DNA of 64,000 nt from Nesterenkonia lacusekhoensis (GTDB lineage: Bacteria > Actinomycetota > Actinomycetes > Actinomycetales > Micrococcaceae), in NCBI RefSeq assembly GCF_017876395.1, contig NZ_JAGINX010000001.1, positions 2,542,001 through 2,606,000 of the forward strand. Reading direction: 5' to 3'. Each line of letters begins with the position of its first letter. The stretch's first letter is position 1. Shown one piece after another: positions 10,109 through 58,364 of this stretch. Made by a program: the position numbers and the translations under genes. The notes under the pieces were generated by a model that searched no databases, was not told the DNA's origin, and saw nothing but the letters and a program-made list of their open reading frames with translations.

Positions 10109-10184
10109 TGCGATTCGAGCGGGCTTTTGGCCCTTATGACGCCTTGATCAGGCTGAAAAGGGCGAAAACCCCGCTCGAATCGCA
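10109..10184. repeat. 76-nt palindromic element, family C copy 1
   Basis: The arms begin TGCGATTCGAGCGGG and end CCCGCTCGAATCGCA, with GGCCCTTAT and AAAAGGGC continuing the stem and a small GCCT-TGATC-AGGC tip. It lies between the convergent MFS and HAD-GH65 genes. Copies of identical length are at 50652-50727 (opposite orientation) and 58289-58364. Confidence 0.85.
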
Positions 10185-45472: not shown

Positions 45473-46255
45473 TCAGCTCCGGTAGCTGGGCTCCCGGCGC
45501 TTCAGCACGCGCACCACGGTGAAGGTCACAGGGAACAGGATGAACTCCACCAGGCATTTGTAGACCACGCCGAGCACCACGTAGCTGCCGAACTCGGCCC
45601 AGCTCATCAGTGGGAAGAGATCGACGCCGGGGATCACGTTCAGGACTGTGGGGACGGTGCTGAAGGCGATGATGCCGAAGATCGCTGTGTCCAGGCTCTG
45701 CCCGAACACGGAGGAGGACATGATGCGTGCCCACAGATTGGATTCGCCGAACCGCCGCTTCACCCGGACGATCACCAGGCTGTTCATCAGCTGCCCCACC
45801 AGGAAGCCGGCCAATGAGGCCACCAGGATCCGGAGGTAGATCCCGTCCCAGCCGAAGAGCACCTCGAAGGCCTCCTGATTCTCCGTGTCACCCAGGGCGG
45901 GCGAGGCGGTGACCAGACCGAAGACCGCCGCGCCGATCACCATCACTCCGAAGCCCACCAGCACTGCGCGCATGGCCGCCCGGAAGCCGTAGACCTCGGA
46001 GATGATTCCACCGAGCAGGTAGGTCAGCGGGAAGAGGAAGACTCCGCCGTCGACCACCCAGCCACCGAAGTCCATCTGTTTGGTGGCGGCGATGTTGGAG
46101 ATCAGGTAGAAGGCGGTCAGCAGGGCCACCAGCACGGCGTAGTACTGGCTGCCCGGATGCGCGAACGAGGCCCTGCGGCCTTCGAGGGATCGGGGCTCGG
46201 AGGATCTCGTCTCAGAAGAGCGGGGCTCGGAGGAGTGGGCTTCAGAGGAGGTCAT
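45473..46255 (-). CDS. yhhQ: YhhQ-family queuosine precursor transporter
   Basis: The 260-residue protein belongs to the VUT/YhhQ family, whose E. coli member imports preQ0/preQ1. It has LLTAFYLISNIAATKQMDFGGWVVDGGVFLFPLTYLLGGIISEVYG, then GFLVGQLMNSLVIVRVKRRF and RIMSSSVFGQSLDTAIFGIIAF, all family hallmarks. The first 25 residues are a repeat of SSEPRSSETR-like units. The gene starts on the last base of the fused ECF ATPase gene and ends the operon, which also has an ECF S and T component and a nucleoside hydrolase. This points to uptake of queuosine-related bases. Confidence 0.85.
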   Translation of the reverse strand: MTSSEAHSSEPRSSETRSSEPRSLEGRRASFAHPGSQYYAVLVALLTAFYLISNIAATKQMDFGGWVVDGGVFLFPLTYLLGGIISEVYGFRAAMRAVLVGFGVMVIGAAVFGLVTASPALGDTENQEAFEVLFGWDGIYLRILVASLAGFLVGQLMNSLVIVRVKRRFGESNLWARIMSSSVFGQSLDTAIFGIIAFSTVPTVLNVIPGVDLFPLMSWAEFGSYVVLGVVYKCLVEFILFPVTFTVVRVLKRREPSYRS

Positions 46256-47913
46256 CAGGGTCCTTTCGGCTCGGGAGGGTCAGTCTCAGCGGTCGTGCGG
46301 GGGCGGTGCGTCGAGCTGTGGTCGTGCGTCGAGTCCAGACGAACGCGCCGCTGGGCGACCTGCTCGGCCCAGGCCAGGTCGTGGGTGGTGGTCAGCACGG
46401 CCGCCCCGGCGGCGGCGACGTCGCGCAGCAGCCCGGTCAGCCGCTGCATGCCGGGATGGTCGCGGCCCAGCGTGGGCTCATCCAGCAGCAGGACCTGCGG
46501 ACGCAGCAGCAGCGCCGTGGCGATCACCAGGTCCTTCTGCCGGGCAGGTGACAGGTCATAGGGGTGAGACTGGGCCGCCTCCGACAGCCCGGTCCGGTGC
46601 AGCAGCTCCGTGACGACGCCGTCGCGTGCGGCCCGGACCGCCGCGCGGTCCCGACGCCGGTGACGCGGCAGCGGCACAGAACGTTCCAGTTCGGCGCGGA
46701 CGGTGGAGGCCGAGAGCTGGGCGCTCGGATCCTGCCCCACCCACGCCAGCGTGCCCGCGCGCCGGTGGGCCGGCAGTTCGTCGAGTGCGAGCTCTGCGCT
46801 GCAGATCCGTCCGCTGACATCAGCATCGCGGCCCAGGAGGCCCGCCAGGGCACGCAACAGCGTGGATTTCCCCGACCCGTTGGCCCCTTCCAGCGTCACG
46901 ATCTCAGCCGGGGCGAGGCTCAGGCGGAAGTCTTCGAGGGTCGGGGTCCCGCCGCGGGAGACGCTGAGCTCCTCCACGGTGAGCACAGGGCGGACAGCAT
47001 CCACCGCTGAAGGAGCAGCCTGCCCGGCGGCCTCAGCTGGCCCAGCTGACCCGGCTGGCCCGGCTGACTCGGCGACCTCCGATGCGTCTGATCCGCGGGA
47101 ACCGAGCCCGGCGTCGCGGGCTTGCCCTGGGCTCGAACTCATCGGCTGGGCCTGAGTCTGTCCTGGCAGGCTGGACCAGACGCCGAACTCCTCCAGAGTT
47201 CCGTCATCTGCTGAGGAGGCCTCGCCAGCGGGGAGCTCCACCAGCTGCCCCTCCCGCAGGAAGGCTCTGCGCTCGCAGGCCGCGCTGAGCTCATCCTCCT
47301 GATGCCCGGCGATCAGCACCGCCCCACCCTCGGCGCAGTACTGCCGCAGCCCGTGCAGCAGGCGTGTTCGTGCGGCGGCGTCCAAGGAGAGTCCGGGCTG
47401 ATCCAGCACCAGCAGGGCAGGGCGCAGTCCGAGCAGCCCGGCCAGGGCGACGATCTGCCGCTCCCCGCCGGAGAGCGAATCCAACCGCCGGTCCAGCAGA
47501 TGCGCGCCGCCGAGATCAGCCAGTGCCGCTTCCGCCGCATGATCGCAGGCCCCTGTTCCGGCACCGGGCTCAGAGTGGGATTCGCGCCCTCGGAGCCGTC
47601 CGGGAAGCCGCAGCTCATCACGGACATAGCTGGTCATCCCGGTCTGCTGGGCCTCCGGATCATCGCCCAACATCACGACGCCGGACCCAGCCGCCGCAGT
47701 ACGGGTGCCGCTGACCCTGCCGCGGTCCTCCAGCAGTCCTGCCGCCAGCCGACAGAGCGTGGAGGTTCCAGATCCCTGGGCGCCCAGTACGGAGACCATC
47801 TGCCCGGGGGCGATGCGCAGATCCACACCGGAGAGCGCGGCAGATCTGGCACCCCGGTGATGGAAACCGGCCCCGGTCAGCTCCAGGACCGGCTCAGCTG
47901 TGTGATCACTCAC
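46255..47913 (-). CDS. Fused ECF-transporter ATPase (EcfA1-EcfA2), one degenerate site
   Basis: The 552-residue protein holds two ABC ATPase domains joined by an Ala/Gly/Pro/Ser-rich linker (about 265-320). Domain 1 has a changed Walker A, GAQGSGTS (residues 44-51, Thr50 for Lys), a Walker B LLVLDQPG with Gln for the catalytic Glu, and a good signature LSGGE. Domain 2 has normal GANGSGKST and LLLDEPTLG but a poor signature, LSPARQ. So one composite site should be inactive and the other competent. GTG 47913 is preferred (AGGAGG 7 nt upstream) and overlaps the EcfT end by 8 nt. It powers S-component uptake. Confidence 0.88.
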   Translation of the reverse strand: MSDHTAEPVLELTGAGFHHRGARSAALSGVDLRIAPGQMVSVLGAQGSGTSTLCRLAAGLLEDRGRVSGTRTAAAGSGVVMLGDDPEAQQTGMTSYVRDELRLPGRLRGRESHSEPGAGTGACDHAAEAALADLGGAHLLDRRLDSLSGGERQIVALAGLLGLRPALLVLDQPGLSLDAAARTRLLHGLRQYCAEGGAVLIAGHQEDELSAACERRAFLREGQLVELPAGEASSADDGTLEEFGVWSSLPGQTQAQPMSSSPGQARDAGLGSRGSDASEVAESAGPAGSAGPAEAAGQAAPSAVDAVRPVLTVEELSVSRGGTPTLEDFRLSLAPAEIVTLEGANGSGKSTLLRALAGLLGRDADVSGRICSAELALDELPAHRRAGTLAWVGQDPSAQLSASTVRAELERSVPLPRHRRRDRAAVRAARDGVVTELLHRTGLSEAAQSHPYDLSPARQKDLVIATALLLRPQVLLLDEPTLGRDHPGMQRLTGLLRDVAAAGAAVLTTTHDLAWAEQVAQRRVRLDSTHDHSSTHRPRTTAETDPPEPKGP

Positions 47914-48730
47914 CGGAACCACCTCCTGTCCGCAGCTCGATCCCCAGGAGCCCCAGCAGGTCTCCGGCGCCGGGCAGCACCAGCACACCAGTCACCGACG
48001 CCGCGACCAGACCGACGCTGAGCGCCGCAGCGGCCCAGCGCAGCAGCTGTTGGGCGCCGGCGTCGTGATGGTCCTGCAGCGGGGCGGGCCGGGGGCAGCG
48101 CCCGAAGCCCCGCTGGGTGAGGGTGTCGTGACGCTGATCCAGCTGCACCAGCACTGAGGTGAACAGCCCGCCCAGGATTCCGGGCAGCAGTCGCAGCCGA
48201 ACGCAGAGCCGCGTGACGTCCCATCCGCGGGCCGAGCGGGACGCCAACGCATCGGCGGTGCGGTGCCGCAGCAGCGGGATCAGGCTCATCGCCGCCGAGC
48301 AGACGTAGGCGATGCTCAGGGGCAGGCGCAGCCGCGTCATGGCGTCGAAGACCCGCGCGGAGTCGGAGCTGAAACCGAAGAGCGCACAGACGGCGATGAC
48401 CGCGGCGACCCGCAGCCACAGCTGCAGGGCGACGGTCAAACCTTCCGCGGTGACTGCCGCCGGGCCGGCGCTCCAGAGCACAGTCACCTCCTGCCCCGGA
48501 TAGAAGAGCCCCTGGATCAGGCCGACCATGATCAGCATGGGCCCGGCCAGCACTGCCACGGTCAGCAGCCAGCGTCTGAGGCTCACTGCGGAGGACAGCA
48601 CGGCGCAGGCCGCGGCGCAGAGCAGCACAGCGGCCGGAACCAGGGGAGAGGGGATCCCGAAGACCACCAGAAGTCCGCAGAGCAGCAGGACCAGTTCGGT
48701 GGCAGGATGCAGCCCGTTCGGGCGGAGCAT
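47906..48730 (-). CDS. ecfT: ECF transporter transmembrane component EcfT
   Basis: The 274-residue membrane protein has the CbiQ/EcfT layout: HPATELVLLLCGLLVVF at the start, four to five helices, and a cytoplasmic coupling helix with ALASRSARGWD, where the conserved EcfT motif Ala-Arg-Gly is seen as SARG. A second such motif, TLTQRGFGR, lies near residue 207. It joins the S component to the ATPase. Its start follows the S-component stop with no gap. Confidence 0.85.
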   Translation of the reverse strand: MLRPNGLHPATELVLLLCGLLVVFGIPSPLVPAAVLLCAAACAVLSSAVSLRRWLLTVAVLAGPMLIMVGLIQGLFYPGQEVTVLWSAGPAAVTAEGLTVALQLWLRVAAVIAVCALFGFSSDSARVFDAMTRLRLPLSIAYVCSAAMSLIPLLRHRTADALASRSARGWDVTRLCVRLRLLPGILGGLFTSVLVQLDQRHDTLTQRGFGRCPRPAPLQDHHDAGAQQLLRWAAAALSVGLVAASVTGVLVLPGAGDLLGLLGIELRTGGGSGE

Positions 48731-49561
48731 TCAGCGTTCGGGCAGCGAATGCCGGGTGAAGGGATGTCGCCCCAGCAGGCGCAGCGGCAGTGCGCGCAGC
48801 ACCAGCAGGGCCAGCAGGAAGATCAGGGCCTTGTCCGCAGTGTCGGAGAGCAGGCTCTGCAGCGTGGTCGCATAGAGCATCTCCAGCCCTGCCGCCTGCA
48901 TCGTGGCCACCACACCGCCGGTCCCGACGCCGAGCCCGCCGCCGAAGACGAAGGCCGCCACCGGGGCGCCCAGGGCGCCGGCCGGAATGCCGGCGACCAG
49001 TCCGGTCAGCAGAGCGGACCAGACGGCGCGGAACGCTCCGATCCGTGCAGCCCAGCCGGCGGCCGCGCCGATGAAGGCGGCACCTGCGGTGAAGGCGATG
49101 ACTGTGGGGTTGATGGTCACACCCCAGATGACGTTGGTCAGCACTGCGGTCAGTGCGCCGGCGGCGGGTCCGGCGATCACACCGACCACCACGGAGCCCA
49201 GCGAGTCCAGATAGAGGGGGATCGGGGTCATCGTGCCGACGATCTGCCCGACCACGATGTTCAGGGCGATGGCGGCGGGCATGACCGCCAGGATGGTGCG
49301 TGGGATCAGCGGGAGGGTGCCGGCGGCGATCAGCAGGCCGCCGGCCAGATAGCCGAGCATCACCCAGAGGGTGGTGTGGCCGAGGTCGTGGCCCAGAGTG
49401 GCCGGCTGGGTCATCAGCACCGTCAGATAGGTGGCGATGATGACGGCTGCCCCGGCGGCCGTCAGGGCGTGGGCCCACAGCGGGCCGGGTGTCTTGGATT
49501 CTCCGGGATCCGCGGCCATGGCGGCGGACCCCTGCCCAGAGGCGCTGGCAGGGGAGGTCAT
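48731..49561 (-). CDS. ECF transporter substrate-binding (S) component
   Basis: The 276-residue protein has a hydrophilic N-terminal stretch and six or more helices. Key parts are NIVVGQIVGTMTPIPLYLDSLGSVVVGVIAGPAAGALTAVLTNVIWG, typical of S components whose substrate is a base or vitamin, and a Gly-rich stretch FGGGLGVGTGGV. The substrate is inferred from the operon: a nucleoside hydrolase precedes it and a YhhQ transporter closes the unit, so a queuosine-type nucleoside or base is the leading guess. The start overlaps the hydrolase stop by 4 nt (ATGA). Confidence 0.82.
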   Translation of the reverse strand: MTSPASASGQGSAAMAADPGESKTPGPLWAHALTAAGAAVIIATYLTVLMTQPATLGHDLGHTTLWVMLGYLAGGLLIAAGTLPLIPRTILAVMPAAIALNIVVGQIVGTMTPIPLYLDSLGSVVVGVIAGPAAGALTAVLTNVIWGVTINPTVIAFTAGAAFIGAAAGWAARIGAFRAVWSALLTGLVAGIPAGALGAPVAAFVFGGGLGVGTGGVVATMQAAGLEMLYATTLQSLLSDTADKALIFLLALLVLRALPLRLLGRHPFTRHSLPER

Positions 49562-50640
49562 CGTGGTCCTCTCATCAGTGATGTGGTCAGGTGGCTGAGG
49601 AAGGTCTCGGCGTCGATGCTGCGGACGATCTCGGCGTTGGCGGGAAGGTCCCAGCGGCCCAGCCAATCCGCGACGGTCTCGCCGCGGGTCAGCGTTCCGG
49701 TCAGCTCGACCCCGACCGGCGCGACGGCGCTCTCAGCCCAAGGGATTATGCCGGGTTCCGGGCGGGCAGGCGAATTGCGCGCCCACTCCACTGCGGCGGC
49801 CAGCACGTAGGGGTCGTGGATATGGGCGAGGTAACCGTGGCCGTCCGCCTCGTGGCACTCGAAGTAGAAGCGCAGCGCCTCGGCCAGCTGTTCCAGGAAG
49901 GCGCTCCAGCCCGGGGTGGTCTCTGCGGAGGTGATCTGCTCCAGGCGCTGCGGGGTCAGGGTCACCGCCTCAGTGGCTTCGATGGGGCCGAGCACCGGCA
50001 GGTGGGCGCTCTCACGCTGCGCAGCCTCCCCGAAGGCTTCGAACACCTGCTGGGCGGCCTCCGGGTCGTAGGTGATGTTCCATTCGGTGGTGGGCCGGGT
50101 GTTGCCCCGATAGTTGAAGGCACCGCCCATGATGAACAGTCGGCGGATCAGCCGCGGCAGCTCGGGCTCCAGCTCCAGCGCCAGGGCCAGGTTGGTGCAC
50201 GGGCCGGTCACGACGCCGATCAGCTCACCCGGGTGCTGCCGGGCCGCGTCCACCCAGGCCCGGGCGGCGTCGAGGTGGGGGCCGCCGGAAGGGCCGTCGG
50301 TGGGGTTGCCAGGGGAGCCGCCGCCGTCGGGAGCGGGGAAGGTGGGGAGCTGGATGTCGGGGAGCTGGGCGTAGCCCGCACCGGTGTCCCCATGGGTCTC
50401 TTCGGCGTACTCGCTGGCTCCGGCCAGCGGGTGCTCGGCGCCGCGGTGCACCGGCAGATCGCTGCGCCCGGCGAGCTCGAGCCAGCCCAGCGTGTTCTTG
50501 ACGACCTGTGCGGTGGAGACGTTGCCGCCGCTGGCTGCGATGCCGGTGATCGTCACATCGGGTTGGCAGAGGAGATAGCCCAGCGCGACGGCGTCGTCGA
50601 TGCCTGGGTCACAGTCCAGGAACAGCGGAATGGATGTCAT
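49558..50640 (-). CDS. Inosine-uridine-type nucleoside hydrolase (QueK-like candidate)
   Basis: The 360-residue protein starts with IPLFLDCDPGIDDAVALGYLL, the Ca-binding DxDPGxDD motif of ribonucleoside hydrolases. It also has VTGPCTNLALALELEP, FIMGGAFNYRGNTRPTTEWNITYDPEAAQQVF and a late HIHDPYVLAAA motif. It is longer than common family members through inserts near residues 85-105 and 205-240. It is the first gene of the ECF/YhhQ operon, so it probably frees a base from the imported nucleoside. In Clostridioides difficile a related hydrolase (QueK) cleaves queuosine; the same job here is inference. Element C2 lies directly upstream. Confidence 0.85.
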   Translation of the reverse strand: MTSIPLFLDCDPGIDDAVALGYLLCQPDVTITGIAASGGNVSTAQVVKNTLGWLELAGRSDLPVHRGAEHPLAGASEYAEETHGDTGAGYAQLPDIQLPTFPAPDGGGSPGNPTDGPSGGPHLDAARAWVDAARQHPGELIGVVTGPCTNLALALELEPELPRLIRRLFIMGGAFNYRGNTRPTTEWNITYDPEAAQQVFEAFGEAAQRESAHLPVLGPIEATEAVTLTPQRLEQITSAETTPGWSAFLEQLAEALRFYFECHEADGHGYLAHIHDPYVLAAAVEWARNSPARPEPGIIPWAESAVAPVGVELTGTLTRGETVADWLGRWDLPANAEIVRSIDAETFLSHLTTSLMRGPR

Positions 50641-50651
50641 CTCCCCATTCT

Positions 50652-50727
50652 GGCGGTTCGAGCGGAGTTTCGGCCCTTTTCAGCCGATTTCGACGATCAT
50701 AAGGGCCAGAACCCCGCTCGAATCGCC
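50652..50727. repeat. 76-nt palindromic element, family C copy 2 (inverted)
   Basis: The arms GGCGGTTCGAGCGGAG and CCCCGCTCGAATCGCC pair with two mismatches. Its reverse complement aligns with copies 1 and 3, including TTCGAGCGGGGTTCTGGCCC. It fills the gap between purM and the nucleoside hydrolase gene, both on the minus strand. Confidence 0.85.
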
Positions 50728-58263: not shown

Positions 58264-58297
58264 TCCCCACAGGCGATTCGTCCCCACAGGCGATTCG
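58264..58297. repeat. Perfect 17-bp tandem duplication at the edge of element C3
   Basis: TCCCCACAGGCGATTCG occurs twice in direct succession (58264-58280 and 58281-58297). The second copy contributes the outer left arm of element C3. This looks like replication slippage or a target-site trace. Confidence 0.8.
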
Positions 58298-58364
58298 AGC
58301 GGGGTTTTCGCCCTTATGGAAGGGTTTTCGGGCTCAAAAGGGCCAGAACCCCGCTCGAATCGCC
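58289..58364. repeat. 76-nt palindromic element, family C copy 3
   Basis: The outer arms GGCGATTCGAGCGGGGTT and ACCCCGCTCGAATCGCC pair nearly perfectly; the inner part has CCCTTATGG and AAAAGGGCC. It lies between the convergent PurD-PurC and ion-channel genes. Confidence 0.85.

Follow-up and report, generated by a model that had tools for sequence, protein, structure and literature searches.

A block of five genes in Nesterenkonia lacusekhoensis (NCBI RefSeq assembly GCF_017876395.1) is examined here as a candidate pathway for the salvage of queuosine. The block lies on the minus strand at positions 45473-50640 of the window, that is, of the whole 64,000-nucleotide stretch that was analysed (positions 2,542,001 to 2,606,000 of contig NZ_JAGINX010000001.1). 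It comprises, in order, five intact genes encoding an IunH-type nucleoside hydrolase (49558..50640; 360 amino acids), the S component of an energy-coupling factor (ECF) transporter that resembles the CD3073 family (48731..49561; 276 amino acids), an ECF T component of the CbiQ family (47906..48730; 274 amino acids; PF02361, 61 bits), a fused ECF ATPase (46255..47913; 552 amino acids; two ABC_tran stretches), and a YhhQ/QPTR queuosine-precursor transporter (45473..46255; 260 amino acids). With gene starts refined from overlaps with the preceding gene, all four junctions touch or overlap: the hydrolase and S genes share ATGA, the S gene (ATG start at 49561) is followed without a gap by the T gene, whose start is the base right after the S stop, the T and ATPase genes overlap by 8 bases (GTG start of the latter at 47913), and the ATPase and YhhQ genes meet in TGATG. 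An earlier note on this DNA, made from its letters alone, had described five touching or overlapping minus-strand genes, and this is confirmed, with all frames intact. The five-gene arrangement is not a product of chance, and an S component, a T component, and two ATPase domains, the parts of an ECF transporter, are encoded together within it.

The nucleoside hydrolase belongs to the IunH family (PF01156, 268 bits) and carries the stretches DCDPGIDDA, THGDTG, GNTRPTTEWN, and HDPY; the key residues, including those of the DCDPGIDDA-type stretch and of HDPY, are invariant in an alignment of 10 rows, as would be asked of a QueK-type enzyme. Inspection by eye revealed no evident signal peptide. 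Its closest solved structures are those of Escherichia coli RihA/YbeK (116 bits). The YhhQ protein exceeds the curated cut-offs of TIGR00697 (94.3 bits versus 50.95) and PF02592 (125.6 bits versus 27.2), and so belongs to the broader family, but it does not reach that of NF008406, the equivalog for the E. coli-type preQ0/preQ1 transporter (42 bits versus 252).

The S component is harder to place. It aligns to the profile of the uncharacterised CD3073 family (NF045596) over 167 of 174 positions with 92.3 bits and an E-value of 2.6e-26, but the curated cut-off of 180 bits is missed, and judged by sequence the protein is a relative of that family, not a member. None of 396 genomes drawn evenly from the order, part of a larger group, encodes a protein that reaches the NF045596 cut-off; the actinobacterial CD3073-like S proteins therefore look like a distinct subfamily. 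Pfam has a family for QueT as well as for QrtT, and a search of Pfam at E-values up to 0.1 returned no family, vitamin or other, these two included. The QrtT family is PF12822, according to PMC11130926. The expectation that the S component would cluster with QueT or QrtT was thus not borne out, while the companion expectation, that it would fall outside the vitamin families, was. Comparison with solved structures returned only folate S components, whose E-values (0.6 and 0.8) are no better than chance, and assignment as a vitamin S component was rejected. An AlphaFold model built from 10 rows had a mean pLDDT of 42.8, too poor for a fold search. The literature searched yielded no paper on CD3073 and none that deals with Nesterenkonia and queuosine.

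The earlier note had read the block as queuosine or queuine salvage and had predicted a genome with tgt, which encodes tRNA-guanine transglycosylase (TGT), and without queC, queD, queE, and queF. The genome does encode tgt. Searches for queA, queC, queF, queG, and queH gave no match in it, while the same searches were positive in 9, 12, 8, 7, and 2, respectively, of 14 control genomes. The predicted absences hold for queC and queF. One gene of the PTPS/QueD family is present at C1:1718474, among open reading frames that by eye appear unrelated to queuosine (glycosyltransferase-like and dehydrogenase-like), and it was not taken as evidence of QueD; the searches did not extend to queE or QueL. 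From these gene contents, the genome seems unable either to synthesise preQ1 through the known pathway or to complete it on tRNA, and, because tgt is present and queA, queC, queF, queG, and queH find no match, a precursor would have to be imported. This is the gene content of an auxotroph that relies on salvage.

Taken with the phylogenetic profiles described below, these data partly support the salvage reading, and the operon probably serves queuosine salvage, with the substrate deduced from gene content and neighbourhood. The ECF transporter would import the queuosine nucleoside freed by the breakdown of tRNA outside the cell, and the hydrolase, of cytoplasmic type, would split it to release the queuine base. 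YhhQ would take up the base in its free form. TGT, whose gene lies elsewhere in the genome, would then place queuine straight into tRNAs that carry GUN anticodons, by a Chlamydia-like route, direct insertion being favoured because no match was found for the enzymes known to complete preQ1 once it is in tRNA (queA, queG, queH).

Two characterised systems offer parallels. The queuosine salvage operon queK-qrtT-queL of Clostridioides difficile likewise combines genes for a nucleoside hydrolase and an ECF S component (PMC11477304). It is controlled by a preQ1 riboswitch, includes QueL, and has QrtT as its S component, whereas here the S component is CD3073-like, the 18 kb around the operon yielded no preQ1 riboswitch, the T component and ATPase are encoded in the operon, and YhhQ is added. 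The direct queuine route of Chlamydia trachomatis, as set out in PMC11570991, similarly combines a TGT with an importer of the YhhQ family in the absence of QueA and QueG/H. With the ECF transporter and hydrolase present here in addition, the route would reach beyond the base to take in the nucleoside as well; the loop motif of TGT also differs.

Nine related loci, eight from Nesterenkonia and one from Leucobacter chromiiresistens, were recovered in one scan of named genomes, in which N. cremea is the closest relative found for the window genome. The hydrolase, S component, T component, and ATPase occur together in all nine, and YhhQ adjoins them in three. YhhQ lies 3' of the ATPase in the window, L002, and L006, and between the hydrolase and the S component in L008; its start overlaps the preceding gene in the window, L006, and L008, and a gap of about 30 bases, with the longest frame, precedes it in L002. 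That YhhQ occupies two different positions within the same operon suggests a functional connection. Since only 3/9 named genomes have it, YhhQ was rejected as a fixed member of the operon, and the double transporter content previously remarked upon, though real, is confined to part of Nesterenkonia in the genomes seen. All nine named genomes encode tgt, and where YhhQ is found it is always within the operon. The other six gave no YhhQ match, so that the hydrolase-ECF set would be their sole candidate queuosine importer among those searched for. We infer that the hydrolase-ECF core is a wider actinobacterial module to which YhhQ was added within one part of Nesterenkonia.

Among the 396 genomes of the order, tgt was found in 172, YhhQ in 135, and the CD3073-like S family in 61. 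The named set overlaps with these by one genome, G071, which was judged from identical coordinates to be the source of L006. Genomes with YhhQ encoded tgt in 131 of 135 cases versus 41 of 261 others, and genomes with the S family did so in 55 of 61 cases versus 117 of 335 without it. By genus, tgt was present in 13/16 S-bearing genera versus 27/93 others; the genus assignments and the genome lists behind these co-occurrence counts were transcribed manually. In the window's own family (35 genomes), all 35 encode tgt, 30 YhhQ, and 20 the S family, and each has YhhQ, the S family, or both. Distances were compared for 112 of the 172 tgt genomes, 133 of the 135 with YhhQ, and 41 of the 61 with the S family, from positions transcribed by hand; YhhQ lay 5.5 kb or less from tgt in 73 of the 109 genomes with both positions compared, and S and YhhQ lay within 20 kb of each other only in the window genome and G071 (36 genomes compared). 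Separately, a gene of the QueA family above cut-off was found in 13 of the 396 genomes (G004, G065, G107, G121, G135, G136, G164, G177, G201, G257, G315, G333, and G395), none of which has a tgt match; such QueA-like proteins may act otherwise.

A phylogeny of the S proteins was built from 53 sequences, after 21 of the 74 S-matching loci had been set aside. These were eight repeats of genomes already in the tree (L012, L014, L017, L030, L031, L034, L039, L066), eight further loci of family f6 (S scores of 400 to 428, tgt in the genome), four further loci of family f4, and a second locus of G272, L071. Also outside the tree are G128, which bears an S gene, and L042, L044, L060, and L080, which have no S match. 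The window belongs to a 39-row clade supported at 99/99, in which the genomes of all 39 rows encode tgt and all 39 loci have a hydrolase match, that of L054 lying about 1.9 kb from the S gene. The 14 tree rows outside the clade include four from genomes without a tgt match. Within the clade, a subclade of 20 rows (100/99) unites Nesterenkonia, Leucobacter, f6, and one f11 sequence, apart from the rest of the window's own family, which suggests that the module was transferred between families; L. chromiiresistens, of another family, carries the module in this subclade and also encodes tgt. These patterns bear on the reading in which the ECF transporter serves an unrelated vitamin-like compound in a coincidental neighbourhood. 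That the S component reaches no curated family cut-off and finds only folate structures at chance level leaves room for such a substrate, but the tie of the S family to tgt and YhhQ and the hydrolase at every clade locus speak against it, and it is considered very improbable.

A number of observations weigh against queuosine salvage. The counts above ignore shared descent, and tgt is near-universal in the families that bear the module, so that few independent events underlie them. The S gene was never within 20 kb of tgt in the 39 genomes checked. Six S-bearing genomes have no tgt match, and in one of these six, which is 89% complete, a hydrolase match stands beside a remote S gene on a short contig (L045). 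Without family f4, an exclusion chosen after the data had been seen, genomes with tgt and no YhhQ have the S family in 6/7 cases versus 40/131 of those with both tgt and YhhQ (p 0.006), which speaks for salvage; with f4 included the comparison is 15/41 versus 40/131, no real difference, and the S family is then no substitute for YhhQ. It should be noted that the S-family members of f4 are remote from the window's S clade. An aldo/keto reductase, which has no known role in queuosine salvage, is encoded directly before the hydrolase in L052, L057, and L063, all of the window's own family (confirmed), and genes of similar size and place, recognised by these features only, precede it in L054, L056, L058, and L065. 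In addition, no riboswitch, and with it no preQ1 riboswitch, was detected around the operon at E-values up to 5 or in the nine related loci at gathering score. Finally, at 18 loci outside the clade, the neighbours include ribokinase (4), purine nucleoside phosphorylase (1), and LacI-type regulators (6), counts that include the loci that supplied the query proteins, and the wider S family accordingly looks, from these neighbours, like a nucleoside importer family, such that the substrate in the clade could be an ordinary nucleoside.

Remote CD3073-like S genes lie near ribokinase or purine nucleoside phosphorylase at L041, L069, L070, L076, and L079, which suggests nucleoside import for catabolism at those loci.

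Because remote relatives keep such company, ordinary nucleoside uptake is the main rival explanation. Under it, the ECF transporter would import common purine or pyrimidine nucleosides, the hydrolase would feed the bases to salvage, and YhhQ would be a chance guest. Among solved structures the hydrolase is closest to RihA, which is pyrimidine-specific, and purF and purM lie upstream of the operon in the window, with purM 0.8 to 1.8 kb upstream of it in L002, L006, L008, and L010; the neighbours found outside the clade and the f4-inclusive comparison also fit this explanation. Inside the close clade, however, none of 31 loci (two of them from the same genome) matched those ribokinase, LacI, or phosphorylase proteins. 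Plain nucleoside uptake also fails to predict the tie to tgt throughout the clade, the presence of the module in six genomes that have tgt and lack YhhQ, or the two positions of YhhQ in the operon. On balance, general nucleoside salvage is regarded as unlikely.

The TGT itself adds a further point against queuine as the substrate, as its loop reads GGALEKE, while PMC11570991 gives GG[LS][AS]G as the pocket motif of queuine-using enzymes and GGLAVG as that of the preQ1 type. The motif GGA[LI][ED]K was present in 26 of 30 TGT loci examined (including L001:1447-2682), the remaining four not matching the search pattern; the 30 include the same Leucobacter gene twice, and the corresponding loop columns were judged by eye. 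An alignment to solved TGTs failed to align the two GG pairs, and, when anchored by eye on the flanking residues, the loop comes out some three residues shorter than that of the best solved match. The loop thus neither proves nor excludes queuine as the substrate. Its departure from the queuine motif would suit salvage of preQ1 or preQ0, with preQ1 as the final base in tRNA, as reported for Bartonella henselae, and with the hydrolase acting on a related nucleoside; transport of preQ1 has also been reported for proteins of organisms without queA or queG/H. But the loop is equally unlike GGLAVG, and free preQ1 or preQ0 would leave no clear use for a nucleoside hydrolase, so that this alternative is judged improbable.

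The fusion of the ATPase had been described as an unusual trait. That description was not upheld, and the fusion was rejected as a peculiarity of this operon, since most aligned clade members and relatives of the module also encode fused forms. The two ATP sites of the protein differ in their motifs, here taken to be the Walker A, signature, and catalytic-glutamate elements of such ATPases. In the N-terminal half, the lysine of Walker A (GAQGSGTST) and the catalytic glutamate (LLVLDQP) are no longer present, and the signature of the C-terminal half is degenerate (LSPARQ). The second site is complete, with GANGSGKST, LLLDEPT, and the partner signature LSGGE. In 12 of 12 distinct close sequences (the window, L002-L010, L068, and L077), the lysine is replaced, by threonine in 11 and by isoleucine in L002, and the glutamate is changed to glutamine. 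By its motifs, then, the fused ATPase has one canonical and one degenerate ATP site, and this is conserved in all of the close sequences; remoter members mostly retain the N-terminal lysine and glutamate. No paper that combines ECF transporter, EcfA, and degenerate Walker A was found in the literature searched.

The gap between purM and the hydrolase gene is mostly filled by a palindromic repeat element (50652..50727) with arms of 27 nucleotides that are 85% complementary, and the gap folds at -49.3 kcal/mol (z -5.7). This palindrome may terminate purM transcription or regulate the operon; scans for promoters and terminators returned nothing exceeding chance. The palindrome is one of three copies in the 64 kb of a dispersed repeat of about 66 bp with arms of 22 nucleotides (10114-10179, 50657-50722, and 58294-58359), where shuffled sequences led to an expectation of 0 arm matches. 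The first and third copies sit between apparently convergent gene ends and may be two-way terminators. A plasmid origin was considered and set aside, as the S protein found no match among plasmid records at an E-value of 1e-3.

PMC11130926 gives QPTR/YhhQ and QueT/QrtT as the only two transporter families known before that work, predicts queuine salvage for most gut Actinomycetota, and states that neither family is present in many of the predicted salvagers. In a gut survey (PMC6593275), genomes that have TGT alone were classed as users of queuine. Set against this background, the actinobacterial CD3073-like S proteins can be proposed, more tentatively and at chances just short of even, to form a further importer family specific for queuosine as the nucleoside. 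Such a family would act with a dedicated hydrolase, be driven by an ATPase with one dead ATP site, and fill part of the transport that is missing in actinobacteria with TGT and without YhhQ. If the salvage reading of the operon is right, its S component imports queuosine without belonging to the QueT/QrtT families. The operon offers a concrete candidate for two steps of salvage, the uptake of the nucleoside and the release of its base, together with a set of genomes in which both could be tested.

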